Source: Chryseobacterium sp. MA9 (GTDB lineage Bacteria; Bacteroidota; Bacteroidia; Flavobacteriales; Weeksellaceae). Taken from it: a stretch of 64,000 bases of DNA. This document shows positions 16,706 through 27,461 of this stretch, piece by piece. Under the pieces are notes generated by a model. It was not told the DNA's origin and did not search any database. It saw only the letters and a list, made by a program, of their open reading frames with translations. The translations under genes and the position numbers were made by a program. Numbering within the stretch: position 1 is the first letter of the stretch; every line of letters starts with the position of its first letter. The stretch is from assembly GCF_024399315.1 (NCBI RefSeq), contig NZ_CP075170.1:4477501-4541500 (forward strand), in the 5' to 3' direction.

Positions 16706-16743
16706 TTAGAAATAAAACTTTTGTTTAAAGTAATTTAACATAA

Positions 16744-16813
16744 CGTTCTGATTTAATTAAAAAAATGTTAAAGCTTTCTTAAACACCCTGGTGTTAAAGT
16801 CAAAATACCTTTG
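16744..16813 (+). promoter_or_regulatory. Pho-box-like 11-bp-period repeats plus -7 element
   Basis: 7-mers AATTAAA (16755), TGTTAAA (16766) and TCTTAAA (16777) lie exactly 11 bases apart, with a weaker CGTTCTG at 16744. The -7 element TACCTTTG is at 16806-16813, 29 bases from the start of the last repeat. The 7+4 spacing is that of PhoB sites in other bacteria. The same layout precedes the SusC gene at 21405. Confidence 0.55.
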
Positions 16814-16915: not shown

Positions 16916-19900
16916 ATGAAAAAAGTAAAGATTGTACTGGGATTATTGTTTTTAGGGCTTGGGACAATGGCTTATGCACAGACCACACAAGCTTCTATTG
17001 TAGGGAAAGTTATTGGGCCGGGAAGTATGGCTCAGGAAAAAGTGAAAGTAACGATCGTGAATGAGTCTACAGGATTCAGAACGGAAACGGAAACAAACTC
17101 AAAAGGGGAGTATATTTTTAAGGAAATTCCTCTTGGAGGCCCTTATACAGTTATTGTAAACGATGATAAAAAAGAAGGTTACAATGTGAACTTTGGAGAT
17201 CAGGTCACTGTAAATATGGATCTGGGGAATGAAAAGAGTATTGAGGAGGTAAAAATTATCGGAAACCTGAAAAACAAGATCGGAAATCTTGGAGCTGCTA
17301 CAGCAATTTCAGCGAAAAATATCAGCATACTTCCGGTGAACGGACGAAACTTTGCCAATCTTGCAGAGTTATCACCACTAAGCGGAAAAGGCGGAAATCT
17401 TTCCGGGCAGCTGGGATCTTCTACCAATTTTACGATTGATGGGATGACGGCCAAAAACCCTACTTCTGCAGGAGCTACTACCAGCCGAAGCGGCGCCCCT
17501 TTCTCTATCTCCATTGAAGCAGTACGTGAATTTAAAATTACTACCAACCAATATGATGTGACATTGGGAAGAAGTGGAGGAGGAACGGTAAGTGCTGTTA
17601 CCAAATCAGGAACCAATAAATTTTCAGGAAGTGCCTGGGAATATTTAAGAACAAACTGGCTTTCCAGTCCATATGACATCAGAGGAAACAAAAGAAACAA
17701 TGATTTCTCTACTTCTCAGTTCGGGTTTTCATTGGGTGGACCTATCATTAAAAATAAATTACATTTCTTCGTAGCATGGGATCACCAGCTGGATTCAAGA
17801 CCTTTAGTGATTGCAGATATCAGATCTCAGGATGATGAAAAGAGATTCAATACTACCACGCAGACGCTTAATCAGTTTCTGGATATTGCACGGGCAAAAT
17901 ATGGGGTAGGAAGCAGCCCGCAATTCGGAACATTTGATAAAGTGAGAAACTCTGATGCCGCTTTCTTACGTCTTGACTGGCAGATCAACGAAAAGAACTT
18001 ATTAACACTTAGAAATAATTTTACTTACGACCTTAATAAAAACGGTCTTGGCGATAATACCAATATCAATTTCTTTGAATCTTATGGGAATGACAAAAAC
18101 TTTGATAACAGCTTGTTATTAACTTTAAGATCAAACCTGCAGCCTAATTTAACCAATGAATTGAAAGCGCAATATCTTTATACTTTCCAGGACAGTTATC
18201 AGAACAACCAATTGGGTAAACCTGTCCCGAGAGCTATTGTGGAGGGAGTGTCTTCAAGTGCAGGGTCTACCAATATTCAGATAGGAGGACACCGTTTTGC
18301 CCAGGAAAGTTTTAGAAATAATGTATTTCAGATTGTAGATAATTTATATTACAATACAGATAAAGTAAAATATACTTTCGGAGCAGATCTGATGTATACA
18401 ACAGCAAAATCGGTATACGGAAGTGAGGTGAATGGAAGATTCCATTTCCAGGGAATGAGCAATTTTGATGCAATGACGCCTTACAAATTCTACAGAGAAG
18501 TTCCTTTGATGGCCGATCCGTCTGTAAGATCAAACATATGGAACATCGGTCTATACGGGCAATTCCAGACTAAAGTGGCTAAAGGTCTTGATTTAATGGC
18601 TGGTTTAAGATTAGACTACGGTGGTTACCCGAAAGCAGAATTCAACCAGAAACTGTTTGATGAAATGGGAATCAGAACTGATAATCAGATCAAATCATTT
18701 GTAATTCAGCCAAGATTCCAGTTTGACTGGAATATCAATGAAGGAAATAAAGACTTCCTTAAGTTCGGTGCCGGAATTTTCTCTTCGGATATCAACAACT
18801 ATATGATCATTAACAACCTTGTATTCGATGGAAAGCATCTTGCTACAGTGGATGTAACAGGTAAAGATGTTCCGTTCCCAGATTTCAACAGCTACAGAAA
18901 TGATTATAACTCGGTTCCGTCTCTTTCCCAGTATCAGATTCCAACCATTAACTATACCGGTAAAGATGCAAAAATTCCAATTGTTTATAAAGCAAATATT
19001 TCTTATACCCATTTCTTCAATGAAAGATTCAGAGCAGGAATTGCAGGCTACATGGCTTTGGGTAGAAATAATTATTTTTACTATGACAGAAATATGGTAG
19101 CCAACCCTTTCTTTACATTAGCGAACGAAGGAGGCAGAGGAGTATTTATCCCTACAGGAGCTATTACCAATAATGATAATTCAAAAAGTGTAAGTTTTGA
19201 CTGGAAACAGGGAAGAATTAATAATAATTTCGGAAGAGTACTGGAATTGGTGAGTGATGGTAAAGTAAATCAGTTCTCATTCGTGATAGATACAAGTTAC
19301 CGTTACTGGAAAGATGGGGAAATCACGGCAAGTTATACATGGTCTGACATCAAAGACAATACTTCTTACAATGGAAACGTAGCAAACTCTGCAACATTAT
19401 CTACCATGATTCAGAGTGATCCGAGAGATTTAAGAATGACTTATTCTGACAACCAGTTCAGAAATAAAGTGGTCATCTATGGGAACTCTCCTACCATTGC
19501 AGGATTTACATTAGGAATCAGATATTCAGGAATCGGAGGAACTCGTTTCTCTGCAACAACAGGCGGAAATATCAATGGTGACTTTGTAGATTCCAATGAC
19601 CTTGCTTTTATCTTCCCGAACCTTACCAAATCTATTTTGGATGATCCACAGGTAGGACAAGCTCTGAAAGATTATATCAACGAATACAACGGAAAAATCG
19701 CAGAACGTAACGGTGGTAAAAATGGATTCTACGGCGTTTGGGACGTTCGTGTAGCGAAAAAAATTAAATTCGATAAAGTGGGGGCTTTTGAACTTTCTGT
19801 AGATATCTTCAACGTAGCAAACCTTCTTAATAAAGAATGGGGTGTAAATAACTCATATGGAAATACCTCTCTGTATAAAGTAACCAGATTTAATAAGGAT

Positions 19901-20002
19901 ACCATGCAGTATGAATATACCAAAAACGTAAGTGGAGGAGGTTTGGTTCCAATGACAGGAAATCCATACCAGATCCAGATTGGTGCGAAGTATTCCTTCT
20001 AA
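16916..20002 (+). CDS. Oar-like TonB-dependent outer-membrane receptor
   Basis: The 1028-residue protein has a signal peptide (cut after AYAQ, about 22), an N-terminal carboxypeptidase-regulatory-like domain (about 25-110), a plug domain (PVNGRNFANLAELSP, FTIDGM, REFKITTNQYDV) and a large beta-barrel ending in phenylalanine. This matches the Oar-like TonB-dependent transporters. The leader of about 100 bases carries the Pho-box-like repeats. The substrate is unknown; the neighbouring glycerophosphodiesterase suggests phosphate-ester uptake or use. Confidence 0.88.
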   Translation: MKKVKIVLGLLFLGLGTMAYAQTTQASIVGKVIGPGSMAQEKVKVTIVNESTGFRTETETNSKGEYIFKEIPLGGPYTVIVNDDKKEGYNVNFGDQVTVNMDLGNEKSIEEVKIIGNLKNKIGNLGAATAISAKNISILPVNGRNFANLAELSPLSGKGGNLSGQLGSSTNFTIDGMTAKNPTSAGATTSRSGAPFSISIEAVREFKITTNQYDVTLGRSGGGTVSAVTKSGTNKFSGSAWEYLRTNWLSSPYDIRGNKRNNDFSTSQFGFSLGGPIIKNKLHFFVAWDHQLDSRPLVIADIRSQDDEKRFNTTTQTLNQFLDIARAKYGVGSSPQFGTFDKVRNSDAAFLRLDWQINEKNLLTLRNNFTYDLNKNGLGDNTNINFFESYGNDKNFDNSLLLTLRSNLQPNLTNELKAQYLYTFQDSYQNNQLGKPVPRAIVEGVSSSAGSTNIQIGGHRFAQESFRNNVFQIVDNLYYNTDKVKYTFGADLMYTTAKSVYGSEVNGRFHFQGMSNFDAMTPYKFYREVPLMADPSVRSNIWNIGLYGQFQTKVAKGLDLMAGLRLDYGGYPKAEFNQKLFDEMGIRTDNQIKSFVIQPRFQFDWNINEGNKDFLKFGAGIFSSDINNYMIINNLVFDGKHLATVDVTGKDVPFPDFNSYRNDYNSVPSLSQYQIPTINYTGKDAKIPIVYKANISYTHFFNERFRAGIAGYMALGRNNYFYYDRNMVANPFFTLANEGGRGVFIPTGAITNNDNSKSVSFDWKQGRINNNFGRVLELVSDGKVNQFSFVIDTSYRYWKDGEITASYTWSDIKDNTSYNGNVANSATLSTMIQSDPRDLRMTYSDNQFRNKVVIYGNSPTIAGFTLGIRYSGIGGTRFSATTGGNINGDFVDSNDLAFIFPNLTKSILDDPQVGQALKDYINEYNGKIAERNGGKNGFYGVWDVRVAKKIKFDKVGAFELSVDIFNVANLLNKEWGVNNSYGNTSLYKVTRFNKDTMQYEYTKNVSGGGLVPMTGNPYQIQIGAKYSF

Positions 20003-20170: not shown

Positions 20171-20917
20171 ATGAAAAATTTTATCTTAGGGTTAGCAGTT
20201 TTAAGTACAGTTATGATGAAAGCACAAACCCAGATCATTGCCCATAGAGGATATTTCCAGGCTCAGCCTCCTACAACGGAGAACTCAATTCAATCATTGG
20301 AAAATGCCCAGAAATTAAAAATATATGGGTCTGAATTTGATGTAAGAATGACAAAAGATGGTGTATTGGTGGTCAATCACGATGAACATCATGGTAAAAT
20401 GGAAATTTCTGAAGCTACATTCAAAGAACTGGAAGCATTGAAATTATCCAATGGAGAAAACTTTCCCACATTAAAAGACTATTTGAAACAGGGAAAAAAA
20501 GATAAAGCTCTGAAGCTGATCGTTGAGATCAAACCAGCCAAGACTCCGGAAATTGAAAATGAGATCACGCAGAAAACAATCAAAATGATCAAAGATATGA
20601 AGCTGGAATCTCAGAGTGAGTTTATTTCTTTCAGCCTTAATATCTGTAAAGAGATCAAAAAACAGGCACCTTCCTTTAAAGTTCAGTATCTGAATGGAGA
20701 ACTGTCTCCTGAGCAGATCAAAAAAGAGGGATTGGATGGTATGGATTATCACTACAGTGTTTTCCAGAAAAACCCTACCTGGATTGCTGATGCAAAAGCA
20801 TTGGGATTAATTACCAATTCATGGACCGTAAATGACGTTGCCGTATATGATGAATTGAAAAAGCAAGGAATCGGGTTTGTAACAACCAATATTCCTGATC
20901 AGTTGAAGAATAAATAA
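20171..20917 (+). CDS. exported glycerophosphodiester phosphodiesterase
   Basis: This 248-residue GDPD-family protein has a signal peptide (cut after MMKAQ). It shows the catalytic motif AHRGYFQAQPPTTENS (His, Arg, Glu), the metal-binding EFDVRMTKDGVLVVNHD and the KLIVEIK strand. It cleaves glycerophosphodiesters to glycerol-3-phosphate and an alcohol in the periplasm. It lies 168 bases after the receptor, with no clear promoter in the gap, so read-through is likely. It fits a phosphate-scavenging role. Confidence 0.93.
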   Translation: MKNFILGLAVLSTVMMKAQTQIIAHRGYFQAQPPTTENSIQSLENAQKLKIYGSEFDVRMTKDGVLVVNHDEHHGKMEISEATFKELEALKLSNGENFPTLKDYLKQGKKDKALKLIVEIKPAKTPEIENEITQKTIKMIKDMKLESQSEFISFSLNICKEIKKQAPSFKVQYLNGELSPEQIKKEGLDGMDYHYSVFQKNPTWIADAKALGLITNSWTVNDVAVYDELKKQGIGFVTTNIPDQLKNK

Positions 20918-21096: not shown

Positions 21097-21297
21097 AGGG
21101 CTAAGCCCCTTATATTAAGAAATAACAAAAAAATAGCGTAATTAATATTTATTTAATGTTTTGTAAATCAGGTTTTTATGTATTTTGTGTAGTATTATCT
21201 CAAGTAAAGACAATAAAGATACATAAATATGGCTGTAGAATAGTATTAAAAAGACTTAATTACTTAATTGTTTGTTAATTAGATGTTTATCTAATGT

Positions 21298-21363
21298 TGT
21301 TAAGGGTAGATTAATATATCGTTTAATAAATTTTTAAGAAACGTTAAAACTGTGTTAAGATCA
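21298..21363 (+). promoter_or_regulatory. six Pho-box-like direct repeats, 11-bp period
   Basis: Six 7-mers start exactly 11 bases apart: TGTTAAG (21298), GATTAAT (21309), CGTTTAA (21320), TTTTTAA (21331), CGTTAAA (21342), TGTTAAG (21353). Thymine at position 4 is invariant, and the core is GTTAA or close to it. The last repeat starts 28 bases before the -7 element. This resembles a PhoB-type binding array; the regulator is not shown in this window. Confidence 0.6.
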
Positions 21364-21380
21364 TCCTTGTAATGTCGCTT

Positions 21381-21388
21381 TAATTTTG
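21381..21388 (+). promoter_or_regulatory. -7 element (TAATTTTG) of the susCD operon
   Basis: Matches TAnnTTTG. It predicts a start near 21395, only about 10 bases before the susC ATG. No -33 TTG is properly spaced, which fits an activator-dependent promoter. Confidence 0.65.
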
Positions 21389-21404: not shown

Positions 21405-24368
21405 ATGCGTAAAGAGACACAAAAACTGTTGGTTTTGTCACTGTTAGGATTCGTCAGCGTTAATCTGGCAGCTCAGCAGAAAGCTAAAAAAGACACGATT
21501 AAAGGACTTGATGAAGTGGTGGTAACTGCTTTAGGGATCAAGAGACATGACAGGGCTTTGGGATATGTTGCAGAAAAAGTAGAAGCCAAAACATTTGAAG
21601 AAACCCAGAATAACAACTGGGCACAGTCAATGGAAGGGAAAGTGGCAGGTCTTAAAATTCAGACTGCCGGAGCAGGGCCGCTTGGAACTTCCAGAATTAC
21701 TTTAAGAGGAGAAAAATCTATTATGATGGATCATAACTACGCTCTCATTGTAGTGGATGGCGTTCCATTGGGAAATTCTACTACAGGTTCCGGTACTGCA
21801 GCTTATGGAGCAGGTTCCGGAGGAGATGTTCCTATTGATCTTGGAAACGGACTGAACAGCATCAATCCGGATGATATTGAATCTGTAACTGTATTAAAAG
21901 GAGCTTCTGCAGCCGCATTATATGGATCCCGCGCAGCCAACGGAGCATTAATGATCACTACAAAATCCGGAAAAACAAAGAACGGAAAGCTGAGAGTAAC
22001 TTTTAATTCTTCTTCAAGCTTTGATTCCGTATTGAAATGGCCGGACTGGCAGTATGAATACGGACAGGGAACTCTGGCAACCAATACAGCAGGAAATTTT
22101 TACTACTCTTATGGGCTTTCCGCAGATGGACCAAGCACAGGAGGTACAAGTAGTGCTTTCGGGCCAAAATTCGCCGGACAGTATTATTTTCAATATGATC
22201 CTAATGTAGTGGGACAAAGCAAGGAAAGACAATTGTGGAGACCTTATGAAAATAATATTAAAGGCTTCTGGCAAACAGGTTCTACCTACTCAAACAGTAT
22301 TTCGGTAGAAAGCTCAAACGACAAAACAAGTTTCAGATCTTCACTTACGTACCTTAATAATGAGTGGATGATGCCAAATACCGGCTTTGACAGATTCAAT
22401 TTTGCCCTATCTTTTGCACATCAGCTTACTAAAAAATTAAAAATCTCTACAAAATTTGCCTATAACACTACTTCCAGTGATAATCTTCCTGCGACGGGAT
22501 ACAACAACCAGTCGATCTCTTATTTCATGATCTTTCAGAATCCCAATGTGGATCTTGAATGGTATAAGCCGATCTGGAAGCCGGGTCAGGGACAGGTTGA
22601 TCAAATCCATCCTTTTAGTTCCTTTATTGACAATCCTTATATGATCGCTTACGAAATGTTGAATGGTGTCAGAAAGAAAACGATTACAGGAAACATTACA
22701 GCAGATTATCAGTTTAATAAAAATTTCAGTTTGATGCTGAGGTCAGGTATTGAAATTCTGAATGAAAAAAGAACAACCAAAAGACCATGGAGTTCTGCAA
22801 ACTATCTTAAAGGGTTCTACAGAGAACAGTTTATCAAAAATCAGGAATATAATAATGACCTTTTATTCTCTTACAAAGCAGATTGGAATAAATTCAGTAT
22901 TTCAGCATCAGCAGGAGGAAGTATCCGTTATAATGAATATCTGATGACTGATTATCAGGCCATCGGATTGAAAACAGCAGGCGAATACAGCCTTACCAAT
23001 GCTCTTTCTATTCCAGTCAAATATCCTGCACCAAGAGATAAACATGTAGACAGTGTTTACGGATTGCTTACGTTGGGATATGACAATAAAGTATTTGTAG
23101 ATGTTACCGGACGAAATGACTGGAGTTCTACACTTCCAAAACAGAACAGATCATTCTTTTACCCTTCAGTAAGTACCAGTTTTATTTTATCAGATATTTT
23201 TAATCTGAAAAGTAATAACCTGAATCTATGGAAACTGAGAGCTTCATGGGCAAAAGTAGGTATAGACAGTGATCCCTATCTTTTGGATAACTACTATACA
23301 GCAAGTAATATTACAGGAAGTGTGGTAGCACCTACTACTTTTAATAACCCTTCCCTTAAACCTGAGAAAAATACTAATATTGAAGCAGGTATGGATTTCA
23401 GCCTTTTCAAAAACAGGTTGAATGTGAATCTTACCGCTTATCAGAACGTCAGTGAAAACCAAATTATCCCTGTTTCATTACCTTCCGAAAGCGGATATTC
23501 CAAAAGGGTTATCAATGCAGGGAAAATCAGAAACAGAGGTCTTGAACTTTCAGCAGATGTATTTGCTGTAAAAACAGAAAATTTCTCATGGAAAGTAGGT
23601 GGGAACTGGTCTACCAACGAAAACAGAGTGATGACTTTACCTGAAGGATTTGACGGAATTGTGTCCAACGTAGGTGATGTTGTTTTCTATAAAATGGAAG
23701 TGGGAGGCTCTCTTGGAGATATGTATGGATTTAAATTATTAAGAACTCCGGACGGAAAAGTAATTTACGGAGATAACGGACTTCCGGGAAGACCTGCAGA
23801 TATTGAAAAAGTAGGAAATGCATTTCCGAAATGGAGAGCCGGTCTTCAGAATGATTTCAAGATCAAAAACTTTACAGTCAGCTTCTCATTTGACGGGCAG
23901 TACGGAGGTATTGCGTATTCACAGTCACATCATAAAATGTCTGAGCAGGGTAAACTGAAATCTACCCTTCCGGGAAGAGACAATCCTGGCGGAATGATTG
24001 TAGGAGACGGTGTTGTTCAGAATCCTGACGGATCTTTCAGCCCAAATATAAAAGGAGTACTGGTGTCTTCTTATTATGGAGATTACTATAGAAGAGCCAA
24101 TGTGGAAACCAACAGCTTCAGTACAGATTTTATTAAGCTGAGAGATGCAAGAATTGCCTATTCATTCCCGAAAGAGACCATAAAATCTCTGGGTCTAGAT
24201 GATCTTACTCTTGCCATTTTCGGAAAAAATCTGTGGATGTGGACGAAGTTCCCAATGTTTGATCCTGAAGTCGCTACGCTGGATAATGCAACCATTACTC
24301 CAGGGGTTGAAATGGGACAGCTTCCAACGGCAAGAACAGTCGGTTTTCAGTTAAATCTTAAATTCTAA
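21405..24368 (+). CDS. SusC/RagA-type TonB-dependent receptor
   Basis: The 987-residue protein has a signal peptide (cut after LAAQ, about 23) and a TonB box-like DEVVVTALG (about 36-44). The SusC plug contains GKVAGLKI, VVDGVPLGN, NPDDIESVTVLKGASAAALYGSRAANG and MITTKSG. A long beta-barrel ends NLKF. The carboxypeptidase-like N-terminal domain common in SusC proteins is absent. It pairs with the SusD-like lipoprotein 12 bases downstream. With the following phosphoesterase, it may import a phosphorylated or phosphate-ester substrate. Confidence 0.93.
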   Translation: MRKETQKLLVLSLLGFVSVNLAAQQKAKKDTIKGLDEVVVTALGIKRHDRALGYVAEKVEAKTFEETQNNNWAQSMEGKVAGLKIQTAGAGPLGTSRITLRGEKSIMMDHNYALIVVDGVPLGNSTTGSGTAAYGAGSGGDVPIDLGNGLNSINPDDIESVTVLKGASAAALYGSRAANGALMITTKSGKTKNGKLRVTFNSSSSFDSVLKWPDWQYEYGQGTLATNTAGNFYYSYGLSADGPSTGGTSSAFGPKFAGQYYFQYDPNVVGQSKERQLWRPYENNIKGFWQTGSTYSNSISVESSNDKTSFRSSLTYLNNEWMMPNTGFDRFNFALSFAHQLTKKLKISTKFAYNTTSSDNLPATGYNNQSISYFMIFQNPNVDLEWYKPIWKPGQGQVDQIHPFSSFIDNPYMIAYEMLNGVRKKTITGNITADYQFNKNFSLMLRSGIEILNEKRTTKRPWSSANYLKGFYREQFIKNQEYNNDLLFSYKADWNKFSISASAGGSIRYNEYLMTDYQAIGLKTAGEYSLTNALSIPVKYPAPRDKHVDSVYGLLTLGYDNKVFVDVTGRNDWSSTLPKQNRSFFYPSVSTSFILSDIFNLKSNNLNLWKLRASWAKVGIDSDPYLLDNYYTASNITGSVVAPTTFNNPSLKPEKNTNIEAGMDFSLFKNRLNVNLTAYQNVSENQIIPVSLPSESGYSKRVINAGKIRNRGLELSADVFAVKTENFSWKVGGNWSTNENRVMTLPEGFDGIVSNVGDVVFYKMEVGGSLGDMYGFKLLRTPDGKVIYGDNGLPGRPADIEKVGNAFPKWRAGLQNDFKIKNFTVSFSFDGQYGGIAYSQSHHKMSEQGKLKSTLPGRDNPGGMIVGDGVVQNPDGSFSPNIKGVLVSSYYGDYYRRANVETNSFSTDFIKLRDARIAYSFPKETIKSLGLDDLTLAIFGKNLWMWTKFPMFDPEVATLDNATITPGVEMGQLPTARTVGFQLNLKF

Positions 24369-24380
24369 AATCTTAAAAAA

Positions 24381-25829
24381 ATGAAAAAAATAATCATAAA
24401 TCTGACATTAGCTGCTTCTGTTTTTATGCTTCAGTCCTGTGACAGAACCTTTGAAGAAATCAATACAGATACCAGCAAAATAAAAGATCCTTCTGTGGGA
24501 AGTCTTCTTGCTCCTATTCAGTATGAAATGGCAAGTTATGGCTATAACAGAGCAGATGATTTTACCTTTGATATCATGCAGATTGCTTTAGACTTTCCAA
24601 ATGAAGGAAATACCTACAGCAGATATTATATGGACGAAAAAAGTGGTAACGGATACTGGAATACCTCTTATAAATGGCTTAAGCAGGTAAGCGACCTTAG
24701 AAAATATGCCACGAAAGAACAGAATAATAATTATCTGGCGATATCAATGGTCCTGAATGCATGGATCGCTTCCAATCTTACTGATGCTTTCGGAGATGTG
24801 CCTTTATCTGAAGCTGTGAAAATTGAAGAGAATATTTTGAAACCGAAATATGACAAACAGAAAGATATCTACATCCAGCTTTTAAATGACCTGAAGACAG
24901 CTAATTCATTATTCAATACCAACCAGGCATTAGCAGAAACAGATTTGTTTTACAATGCCAATACCAACAGCCAGACAGGTATTTTAGGATGGAAAAAATT
25001 CTGTAACTCTCTTTCATTAAGATTGCTAACGAGGATCTTGAGCAAAAACGGTGAAGTAAACGTACATGAAAGAATTCAGGAAATAGTTAACAATCCTGCT
25101 CAATACCCTATTTTTCAGAATAATGCGGACAGTGCTGTATTACCGCTTTCCGGAATATCTCCATACTTGCCACCAATTGCCCGTCCACAGGATTTTACGG
25201 CGTACAGATCAGCAGGAGAGTTCTTTGTGAATGCGATGAAAGATAATAATGATCCAAGGATGAGTATGTTCTTTACTAAAGCTAAAGCAACCACTGGAGA
25301 AGATCTTGGTTATAAAGGAGCTCCTTCAGGATATGCATTGGGAACAGCTTTCAACTATCAGCCTTCTAACCTTAACCAAAACCTGGCAAAAGCACCGCTG
25401 AAGATCTTAATCATGACCTATTCTGAGGTGCAGTTTATTCTGGCAGAATTGGTTAACAAAGGAATTATTGCAGGAAATCAGCAGACCTATTACGAAACGG
25501 GAGTGAAGTCAATTATTGAACAATGGGGAGCAACAGTTCCTGCCAATTATTTCAGTAATAACAATGTAGCTTATGATGGTTCACTTCAAAAACTGATGCT
25601 TCAAAAGTACATTTCCTTATTTTTTGTGGATCATCAGCAATGGTATGAGTACAGACGTACAAAACTGCCTGTACTACCCAATAACGGAGGGCTTCAGAAC
25701 GGAGGACAGATGCCTGTAAGATTCATGTATCCTACCACTACAAAGGTGATGAATACGGATAATTATAACGCAGCAGTACAATCCATGGGAGGAGACAACA
25801 TCAATGTAAAAATGTGGTGGAATAAATAA
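24381..25829 (+). CDS. SusD/RagB-like outer-membrane lipoprotein
   Basis: A 482-residue lipoprotein with signal sequence and lipobox (FMLQSC, cysteine about 20), followed by the FEEINTDTSKIKDPS segment typical of one SusD branch. Alpha-helical repeat character covers most of its length, with conserved MVLNAWIASNLTDAFGDVP and FFVDHQQWYEYRRT. It caps the SusC barrel and binds substrate at the cell surface. It is co-transcribed with susC and the phosphoesterase gene. Confidence 0.92.
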   Translation: MKKIIINLTLAASVFMLQSCDRTFEEINTDTSKIKDPSVGSLLAPIQYEMASYGYNRADDFTFDIMQIALDFPNEGNTYSRYYMDEKSGNGYWNTSYKWLKQVSDLRKYATKEQNNNYLAISMVLNAWIASNLTDAFGDVPLSEAVKIEENILKPKYDKQKDIYIQLLNDLKTANSLFNTNQALAETDLFYNANTNSQTGILGWKKFCNSLSLRLLTRILSKNGEVNVHERIQEIVNNPAQYPIFQNNADSAVLPLSGISPYLPPIARPQDFTAYRSAGEFFVNAMKDNNDPRMSMFFTKAKATTGEDLGYKGAPSGYALGTAFNYQPSNLNQNLAKAPLKILIMTYSEVQFILAELVNKGIIAGNQQTYYETGVKSIIEQWGATVPANYFSNNNVAYDGSLQKLMLQKYISLFFVDHQQWYEYRRTKLPVLPNNGGLQNGGQMPVRFMYPTTTKVMNTDNYNAAVQSMGGDNINVKMWWNK

Positions 25830-25874: not shown

Positions 25875-27461
25875 ATGAGTATCAATATAAAATTTTTAGT
25901 GCCTTGCATCCTGGTTTCAGCAATGGCATTCCCGCAAACTTCTGCTTCAGGATATGTATACGAAGACAGCAACAAAAATCAAAAGAAAGAAAACCGCGAA
26001 AAAGGAGTTGAGGGCGTAGCTGTTTCCAATGGTGTTCAGGTAGTTCTTACTGATAAAAACGGGCGATACAGTCTTCCGGTTCAGGAAGATCAGACTATTT
26101 TTGTCATCAAACCTTCAGGATACCAGACTGCTTTAAATGCGAATAACCTTCCACAGTTCTATTACCATCATAAACCAAAAGGATCTCCGGCAGATTTCAA
26201 ATACAAAGGAGTTGCTGCTACAGGAGATCTTCCTAAAGAGCTGAACTTTCCGCTTTATAAGCAAAACGAAAATAAAAACTTTGATATCCTTGTTTTTGGA
26301 GACCCACAGCCTTACACAGAAAAAGAGCTGGACTACTTCAAAAGAGGAATTGTAAACGAAGTGAAAAACACCAAGAAGAACGCCGTGCTTGGAATCAGCC
26401 TGGGAGATTTGGTTGGAGATAACCTAAGCCTTCAAAAGCCTTATGCAGATGTGATGAAAGAAGTGGGACTGCCTTGGTATAATGTAATGGGAAATCATGA
26501 CATGAATTATGATGCGAAAGAAGACCGTCTTTCCGACGAAACATTTGAATCTAATTTTGGTCCTGCCAATTATTCTTTCAATTATGGGAACGTGCATTTT
26601 ATCATTCTGGATGATATTCTTTATCCCGATCCGAGAGATGGAAAAGGCTATTGGGGCGGATTCCGTGAGGATCAGCTTCAGTTTGTCGAAAATGACCTGA
26701 AATTGGTCGATAAAAATAAACTGATCGTGGTGTCTTTCCATATTCCGTTAGAACATAACAATGAAGACAGCTTCAGAAATGCGGACCGTCAGAAATTATT
26801 TGATTTCTTAAATCCTTTCCAGAATGTATTGCTCCTATCAGCACATACACACATCCAGCAGCAGATTTTCTACGGTAAAAAAGCAGGCTGGAACGGTATC
26901 AAAGAACTACATGAATATAACGTAGGGACCACTTGTGGCGACTGGTATTCAGGAACACCGGATGATGCCGGACTTCCTACCTCAACGATGAGAGACGGAA
27001 CGGCAAAAGGATATTCATTCATCAGCTTTGCAGACAATCAGTATAAAGTTAAATACAAAACAGCTGGAAAACCGGATGATTATCAGATCAAATTATATGT
27101 TCCAAAAGTGATTCCTACATCAAGAACTTCTGCAAAAGTATTGGCCAACTTCTTTATGGGAAGCAAAAAAGATAAGGTAGAATACAGAATAGATGGTGGA
27201 AAATGGGAAGAAATGGAGTATGATGAAACCATAGATCCAAATTTTGCTCTTTCAGTTTTCAAATGGGATGCCACAGAGAAAATTTTTCCGGGAAGGAGAC
27301 CTTCCAATCCTGAAATGTCGAAGCACATCTGGGAAGCAGATTTTCCTAAAAAATTATCATTAGGAAAGCATAAAGTTGAGGTAAAAGCTGTTGACATGTA
27401 CGGAAATGAATTCACTGCTTCAGAAGAATTTGAAGTTCAGAATTCAATTCAGATTCCTTAA
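25875..27461 (+). CDS. exported calcineurin-like metallophosphoesterase
   Basis: A 528-residue protein with a signal peptide. An N-terminal beta-sandwich (about 25-100) precedes the catalytic domain, with metal-binding motifs FGDPQP, GDLVGD, GNHDMN, SFHIPLEHN and AHTH. A C-terminal domain begins near 370. This is the MetallophosN - Metallophos - MetallophosC layout. It hydrolyses phosphate esters or diesters outside the inner membrane. It lies 45 bases after susD in the same operon, so it probably processes the substrate handled by SusCD. Confidence 0.9.
   Translation: MSINIKFLVPCILVSAMAFPQTSASGYVYEDSNKNQKKENREKGVEGVAVSNGVQVVLTDKNGRYSLPVQEDQTIFVIKPSGYQTALNANNLPQFYYHHKPKGSPADFKYKGVAATGDLPKELNFPLYKQNENKNFDILVFGDPQPYTEKELDYFKRGIVNEVKNTKKNAVLGISLGDLVGDNLSLQKPYADVMKEVGLPWYNVMGNHDMNYDAKEDRLSDETFESNFGPANYSFNYGNVHFIILDDILYPDPRDGKGYWGGFREDQLQFVENDLKLVDKNKLIVVSFHIPLEHNNEDSFRNADRQKLFDFLNPFQNVLLLSAHTHIQQQIFYGKKAGWNGIKELHEYNVGTTCGDWYSGTPDDAGLPTSTMRDGTAKGYSFISFADNQYKVKYKTAGKPDDYQIKLYVPKVIPTSRTSAKVLANFFMGSKKDKVEYRIDGGKWEEMEYDETIDPNFALSVFKWDATEKIFPGRRPSNPEMSKHIWEADFPKKLSLGKHKVEVKAVDMYGNEFTASEEFEVQNSIQIP

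Follow-up and report, generated by a model that had tools for sequence, protein, structure and literature searches.

Which regulator reads the six short repeats that precede a susC gene of Chryseobacterium sp. MA9, and what does it control? The repeats lie in the window, the whole stretch of 64,000 nucleotides that was analyzed, and all are on the plus strand: GTTAAGG (21299 to 21305), ATTAATA (21310 to 21316), GTTTAAT (21321 to 21327), TTTTAAG (21332 to 21338), GTTAAAA (21343 to 21349), and GTTAAGA (21354 to 21360). Their starts keep an exact 11-bp register in a single orientation, as the initial annotation had described. The TTAA cores (at 21300, 21311, 21323, 21334, 21344, and 21355) are spaced less evenly, at 11, 12, 11, 10, and 11 bp, because the third and fourth elements read TTTAA, with the core slipped by 1 bp. 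The -7 promoter element, TAATTTTG (21381 to 21388, plus strand), starts 20 bp after the sixth 7-mer ends and 26 bp after the TTAA core of that 7-mer begins, distances that replace the 28 bases originally given; the cores of the fifth and sixth elements are thus at -37 and -26 from the box. A Bacteroidota -33 element is expected at a spacing of 17 to 23 bp from the -7 element, and direct reading of the susC promoter found no TTG at that spacing before TAATTTTG. Sequence comparisons suggest that the repeats are probably a tandem operator that would drive an organic-phosphate uptake operon. Its regulator would belong to the OmpR/PhoB family, and the likeliest candidate is the putative PhoB ortholog at G000:C1:2113555-2114226.

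The array is conserved across the genus. Strong SusC matches were found in 97 of 98 genomes, some of which had only paralogs with ca. 34% identity, and 51 orthologous SusC promoters (45 distinct), all retaining the array, were placed on their -7 box for conservation scoring. The three promoter-proximal units contained TTAA in all 45 distinct promoters. Among the distal units, TTAA was retained within 1 bp at the first element in 41/45, at the second in 39/45 (otherwise TTCA), and at the third in 32/45. The -7 box read TAATTTTG in 40/45. Within the units, the T, T, A, and A positions averaged 1.7 to 2.0 bits in the 51 promoters, versus 0.8 to 1.2 bits for the far spacer positions. Farther upstream, at 21205 to 21275, the blocks AAGACAATAAAG, ATTAAAA, and TTAATT are also conserved among SusC orthologs.

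Family matches agreed with the earlier description of the operon as a SusCD pair plus a phosphoesterase. The first gene (21405 to 24368, plus strand) encodes a SusC/RagA-family TonB-dependent transporter (NCBIfam TIGR04056, 532.9 bits versus a cutoff of 368), followed on the same strand by genes for a SusD-like lipoprotein (24381 to 25829, PF12771) and a calcineurin-like metallophosphoesterase (25875 to 27461, PF16371/PF00149/PF16370). A second array in the window (16735 to 16784, plus strand), conserved in 18 genomes, consists of TTAACA, TTCTGA, TTAAAA, TTAAAG, and TTAAAC, units that sit at -71, -60, -49, -38, and -27 before the -7 element TACCTTTG (16806 to 16813, plus strand; invariant in 18/18 genomes), the -60 unit being degenerate. 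Downstream, also on the plus strand, are genes for a TonB-receptor-like outer membrane protein (16916 to 20002, PF25183 barrel and CarboxypepD_reg) and a glycerophosphodiester phosphodiesterase (GDPD; 20171 to 20917, PF03009). The order SusC-SusD-phosphoesterase was kept in all 20 relatives examined, and the longer order of DNA ligase, TBDT-GDPD, and SusC-SusD-phosphoesterase was kept in most of them, the TBDT being absent from three. The susC and TBDT-GDPD arrays have the same phase to the -7 box. The two operons, each of an organophosphate type, therefore have a common promoter architecture.

The same architecture is present beside the candidate regulator gene. Among eleven full-length OmpR-type regulators in the genome, the product of G000:C1:2113555-2114226 had PhoB models as its best match, at scores below the curated cutoffs (208 versus 296 bits and 191 versus 270 bits). 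A HisKA histidine kinase gene adjoins this phoB-like gene, and genes for a TBDT and a lipoprotein are divergent from it. The divergent promoter has five units, TTAATA, TTCACA, TTAAGA, CTAAAG, and TTAAAA, repeated every 11 bp in the same phase to the -7 box as the susC array. In other species of the genus an unrelated TBDT occupies the phoB-linked position, and its promoter likewise has an in-phase array. Close relatives of F. johnsoniae were used for comparison with Flavobacterium, in which the locus is OprP-PhoR-PhoB (OprP being assigned from position and sequence appearance) with a divergent TBDT and lipoprotein; the promoter of that TBDT has xTAACA units with a period of 11 and offsets as in Chryseobacterium. 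The Flavobacterium locus has the gene order of Fjoh_0542 to Fjoh_0546, and the phoB-linked locus is syntenic with this phoBR region of F. johnsoniae, in which the TBDT and the lipoprotein were strongly induced under Pi depletion, by 8.0 and 9.9 log2 units, respectively (PMC8115612, Table 1). A family search found no match to a PhoU-family protein in the genome, whereas such a protein is present in 13 of 14 control genomes, and thus Pi must be sensed in some way other than through PhoU as in E. coli. The receiver of the PhoB-like protein (L056:9553-10227) reads NDYIVKLIKPK, in place of the DDY..KPF of other regulators, with another residue where a proline normally follows the lysine; the Flavobacterium orthologs read DDYITKPIKPK.

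A search for TTAA cores at 11-bp spacing and their downstream genes was run, as the initial annotation proposed. The pattern TTAA-N7-TTAA-N22/23-TANNTTTG, matched exactly with both spacers, occurred 403 times in 40 genomes, compared with 93 matches for the reversed pattern as a control. When the array was shifted by 5 bp, there were 126 matches versus 120 in the control. Thus, a TTAA pair at 11 bp that is locked to the -7 element is enriched about fourfold over the reversed pattern and threefold over the out-of-phase pattern in these genomes. The strain's own genome had 14 in-phase matches (control, 5). Five of these precede phosphate-type genes: PhoX, the adjacent MauG-like gene, a SusC-SusD pair whose operon also encodes a phosphocholine-specific phospholipase C, TBDT-GDPD, and the susC operon. 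The other nine precede genes with no obvious phosphate role (ExbB, DUF6909, and an alcohol-dehydrogenase-like gene are examples), and some of these matches may be due to chance. The promoters of PhoX, the MauG-like gene, and the SusCD operon with the phospholipase C all have TTAA cores at -26 and -37, and the offsets -26/-27, -37/-38, and -48/-49 recur across unrelated promoters. In F. johnsoniae, PhoX and the MauG-like gene were induced under Pi depletion by 12.5 and 9.6 log2 units, respectively (PMC8115612, Table 1). At G000:C1:3440510-3440555 (L076), three TTAA units with 11-bp spacing precede TACATTTG at the ExbB-like gene, and many other genomes of the genus contain similar sites.

Models of the promoter differed in how well they transferred to the window. 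Fixed-register models, written in Python, were used because, in a MAFFT leave-out alignment, one promoter family was displaced by a whole unit. The first held-out model, which was position specific, fitted its training families too closely: its top match in the window was the 16735 array but with the wrong -7 box, and it ranked the SusC promoter sixth, again with the wrong -7 position. The second, a 6-bp element-averaged model trained on the phoB-linked promoters only, gave the two window promoters the two highest scores in the 64 kb (31.0 and 26.1), whereas the peaks in 12 shuffled windows were 16.6 to 20.8. A profile built from all 79 bp of the promoter was strong only on its own training loci (46.9, 43.0, and 40.3 bits; next, 16) and therefore says nothing about further targets. 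A two-mismatch scan with TTAA-N7-TTAA-N23-TANNTTTG was uninformative (409 matches versus 472 in the control).

It is possible, if unlikely, that a different OmpR-family regulator, such as the RprY ortholog (L064) or another of the eleven, reads the susC array in response to another signal and that only the box type is common with PhoB targets. The element-averaged model also scored high at L063:11619, L060:12990, and L057:10239, loci chosen because they hold OmpR-type regulator genes, and the arrays there have the same phase and are upstream of genes neighboring the regulator genes. Four TTAA units at exact 11-bp spacing are found upstream of a TolC-HlyD-RND-like efflux operon (L065:8173-8209), beside a CzcR/CopR-like regulator gene. 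These arrays suggest that PhoB is not the only regulator to use the box. The TTAA array at 2779672 was considered as the phoB operon promoter and was ruled out, as an RND-type efflux operon is downstream. A related motif, TTTAACA, described as ArcA-like, was reported from DAP-seq of the Riemerella anatipestifer regulator designated PhoP, and the targets listed for it, among them the Bat operon, include no phosphatases (PMC9603813). The qPCR primers for that regulator (PMC5399024) encode the peptides GEEGLK and GYQLGAD, which match the RprY-type L064:9871-10557, not the PhoB-like L056. Thus, the system published as PhoPR appears, from these 13 residues only, to be an RprY-type regulator, and TTTAACA was rejected as a PhoB motif. 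The TTAA box type is probably shared among several OmpR-type regulators, and therefore assignment of the susC array to PhoB rests on gene context; sequence alone names no regulator. That context favors phosphate: the metallophosphoesterase, the adjacent GDPD, and PhoX and the phospholipase C elsewhere in the genome suit phosphate control, and the phoB-linked promoter has the array in two genera. A broader suggestion, which we offer tentatively and would put somewhat below an even chance, is that in Flavobacteriia a single TTAA-type 11-bp box, at a fixed phase to the -7 element, is used by several OmpR-family regulators, so that many two-component systems would have a common activation geometry, with specificity in unit number and flanking bases and with PhoB as one user.

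Another explanation is that the phased T/A steps form a curved-DNA or UP-like element, which would increase basal transcription with no dedicated regulator involved. In its favor, the region is 78% A+T and has a helical-period repeat. However, the conserved unit, TTAA, is a flexible step rather than an A-tract, the core letters are conserved, the phase to the -7 element is fixed while out-of-phase versions are not enriched, and the pattern matches include a cluster of phosphate genes. This explanation is very improbable.

The array and its periodicity are beyond chance expectation. The longest TTAA chain with steps of 10 to 12 bp in the 289-bp intergenic region has 6 members, and among periods of 7 to 16 the longest chain falls at 11. 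The phased motif, which the initial annotation allowed might be as frequent in shuffled sequence, is not: a chain of at least 6 arose in only 1 of 20,000 dinucleotide shuffles of this region. Besides its one TTAA chain of 6, the 64-kb window contains two of 3; the mean in shuffled windows was 0.03 chains of 4, and none was longer. Chance periodicity in AT-rich intergenic DNA, in which TTAA is frequent (13 copies in the 289 bp), is opposed by these shuffles and refuted by conservation of the array in 51 orthologs, and its probability is negligible.

The reading of the susC repeats as a Pho-box-type tandem operator is supported computationally, as is the phosphate control originally proposed for a PhoB-type array, because the same array is found at the phoB-linked promoter in two genera and at PhoX, the MauG-like gene, and TBDT-GDPD. 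We infer that PhoB binds the array, that it activates and does not repress, and that phosphate is the signal. In a model based on E. coli PhoB (PMC4415409), phosphorylated PhoB would, under Pi limitation, load head to tail on the six 11-bp units, as up to three dimers on the same side of the helix. With the innermost units in the place of the missing -33 element, PhoB would then bring RNA polymerase to the -7 box, TAATTTTG. The expected outcome is that susC, susD, and the metallophosphoesterase gene would be switched on for organic-phosphate uptake.

Such an operator would provide a concrete Pho box sequence and geometry for Chryseobacterium and Flavobacterium. Pi starvation regulons have been measured in these bacteria, but the operator was not found in the literature searched: no published Pho box for Flavobacteriia was found in the open-access papers searched, a scope that makes this weak evidence of novelty. 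The regulon predicted for this one genome includes the phoB-linked TBDT, two SusCD operons (with phosphoesterase and with phospholipase C), TBDT-GDPD, PhoX, and the MauG-like gene. In this genus, phosphate control would also extend to SusCD importers, which are generally interpreted as glycan systems.

Three known systems bear comparison. The Riemerella PhoP motif resembles the array in its TTAA-containing core, its OmpR-family regulator, and its source in a relative of Chryseobacterium, but that regulator is RprY type by its primer-encoded peptides rather than PhoB-like. The Pus system of F. johnsoniae (PMC8115612) is similar in that a SusCD pair is co-encoded with a phosphoesterase, the phoBR, TBDT, and lipoprotein locus has the same order, and PhoX is accompanied by a MauG-like gene; the text of that study does not contain the term "Pho box" or "promoter." Unlike Pus, the susC operon had no identified ECF sigma or FecR gene, and its SusD belongs to PF12771 (SusD-like_2), whereas PusD1 and PusD2 belong to PF07980/PF14322. 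The third system is the Pho box of E. coli PhoB and of B. subtilis and S. coelicolor PhoP (reviewed in PMC4415409). The unit in Chryseobacterium is TTAA(A/G), and xTAACA in Flavobacterium, rather than the CTGTCAT or GTTCACC of the Pho box; the window arrays have five to six units, compared with two in the classical Pho box; and, unlike in those systems, the array is at a Bacteroidota -7 promoter (TAnnTTTG) lacking a -33 element, in a genome without a PhoU match. However, as in the Pho box, 7 conserved bases and 4 looser bases are arranged head to tail with an 11-bp period, the array is promoter proximal in fixed helical phase, in place of the -35/-33 hexamer, and it is found at phosphate-scavenging genes and near phoB.
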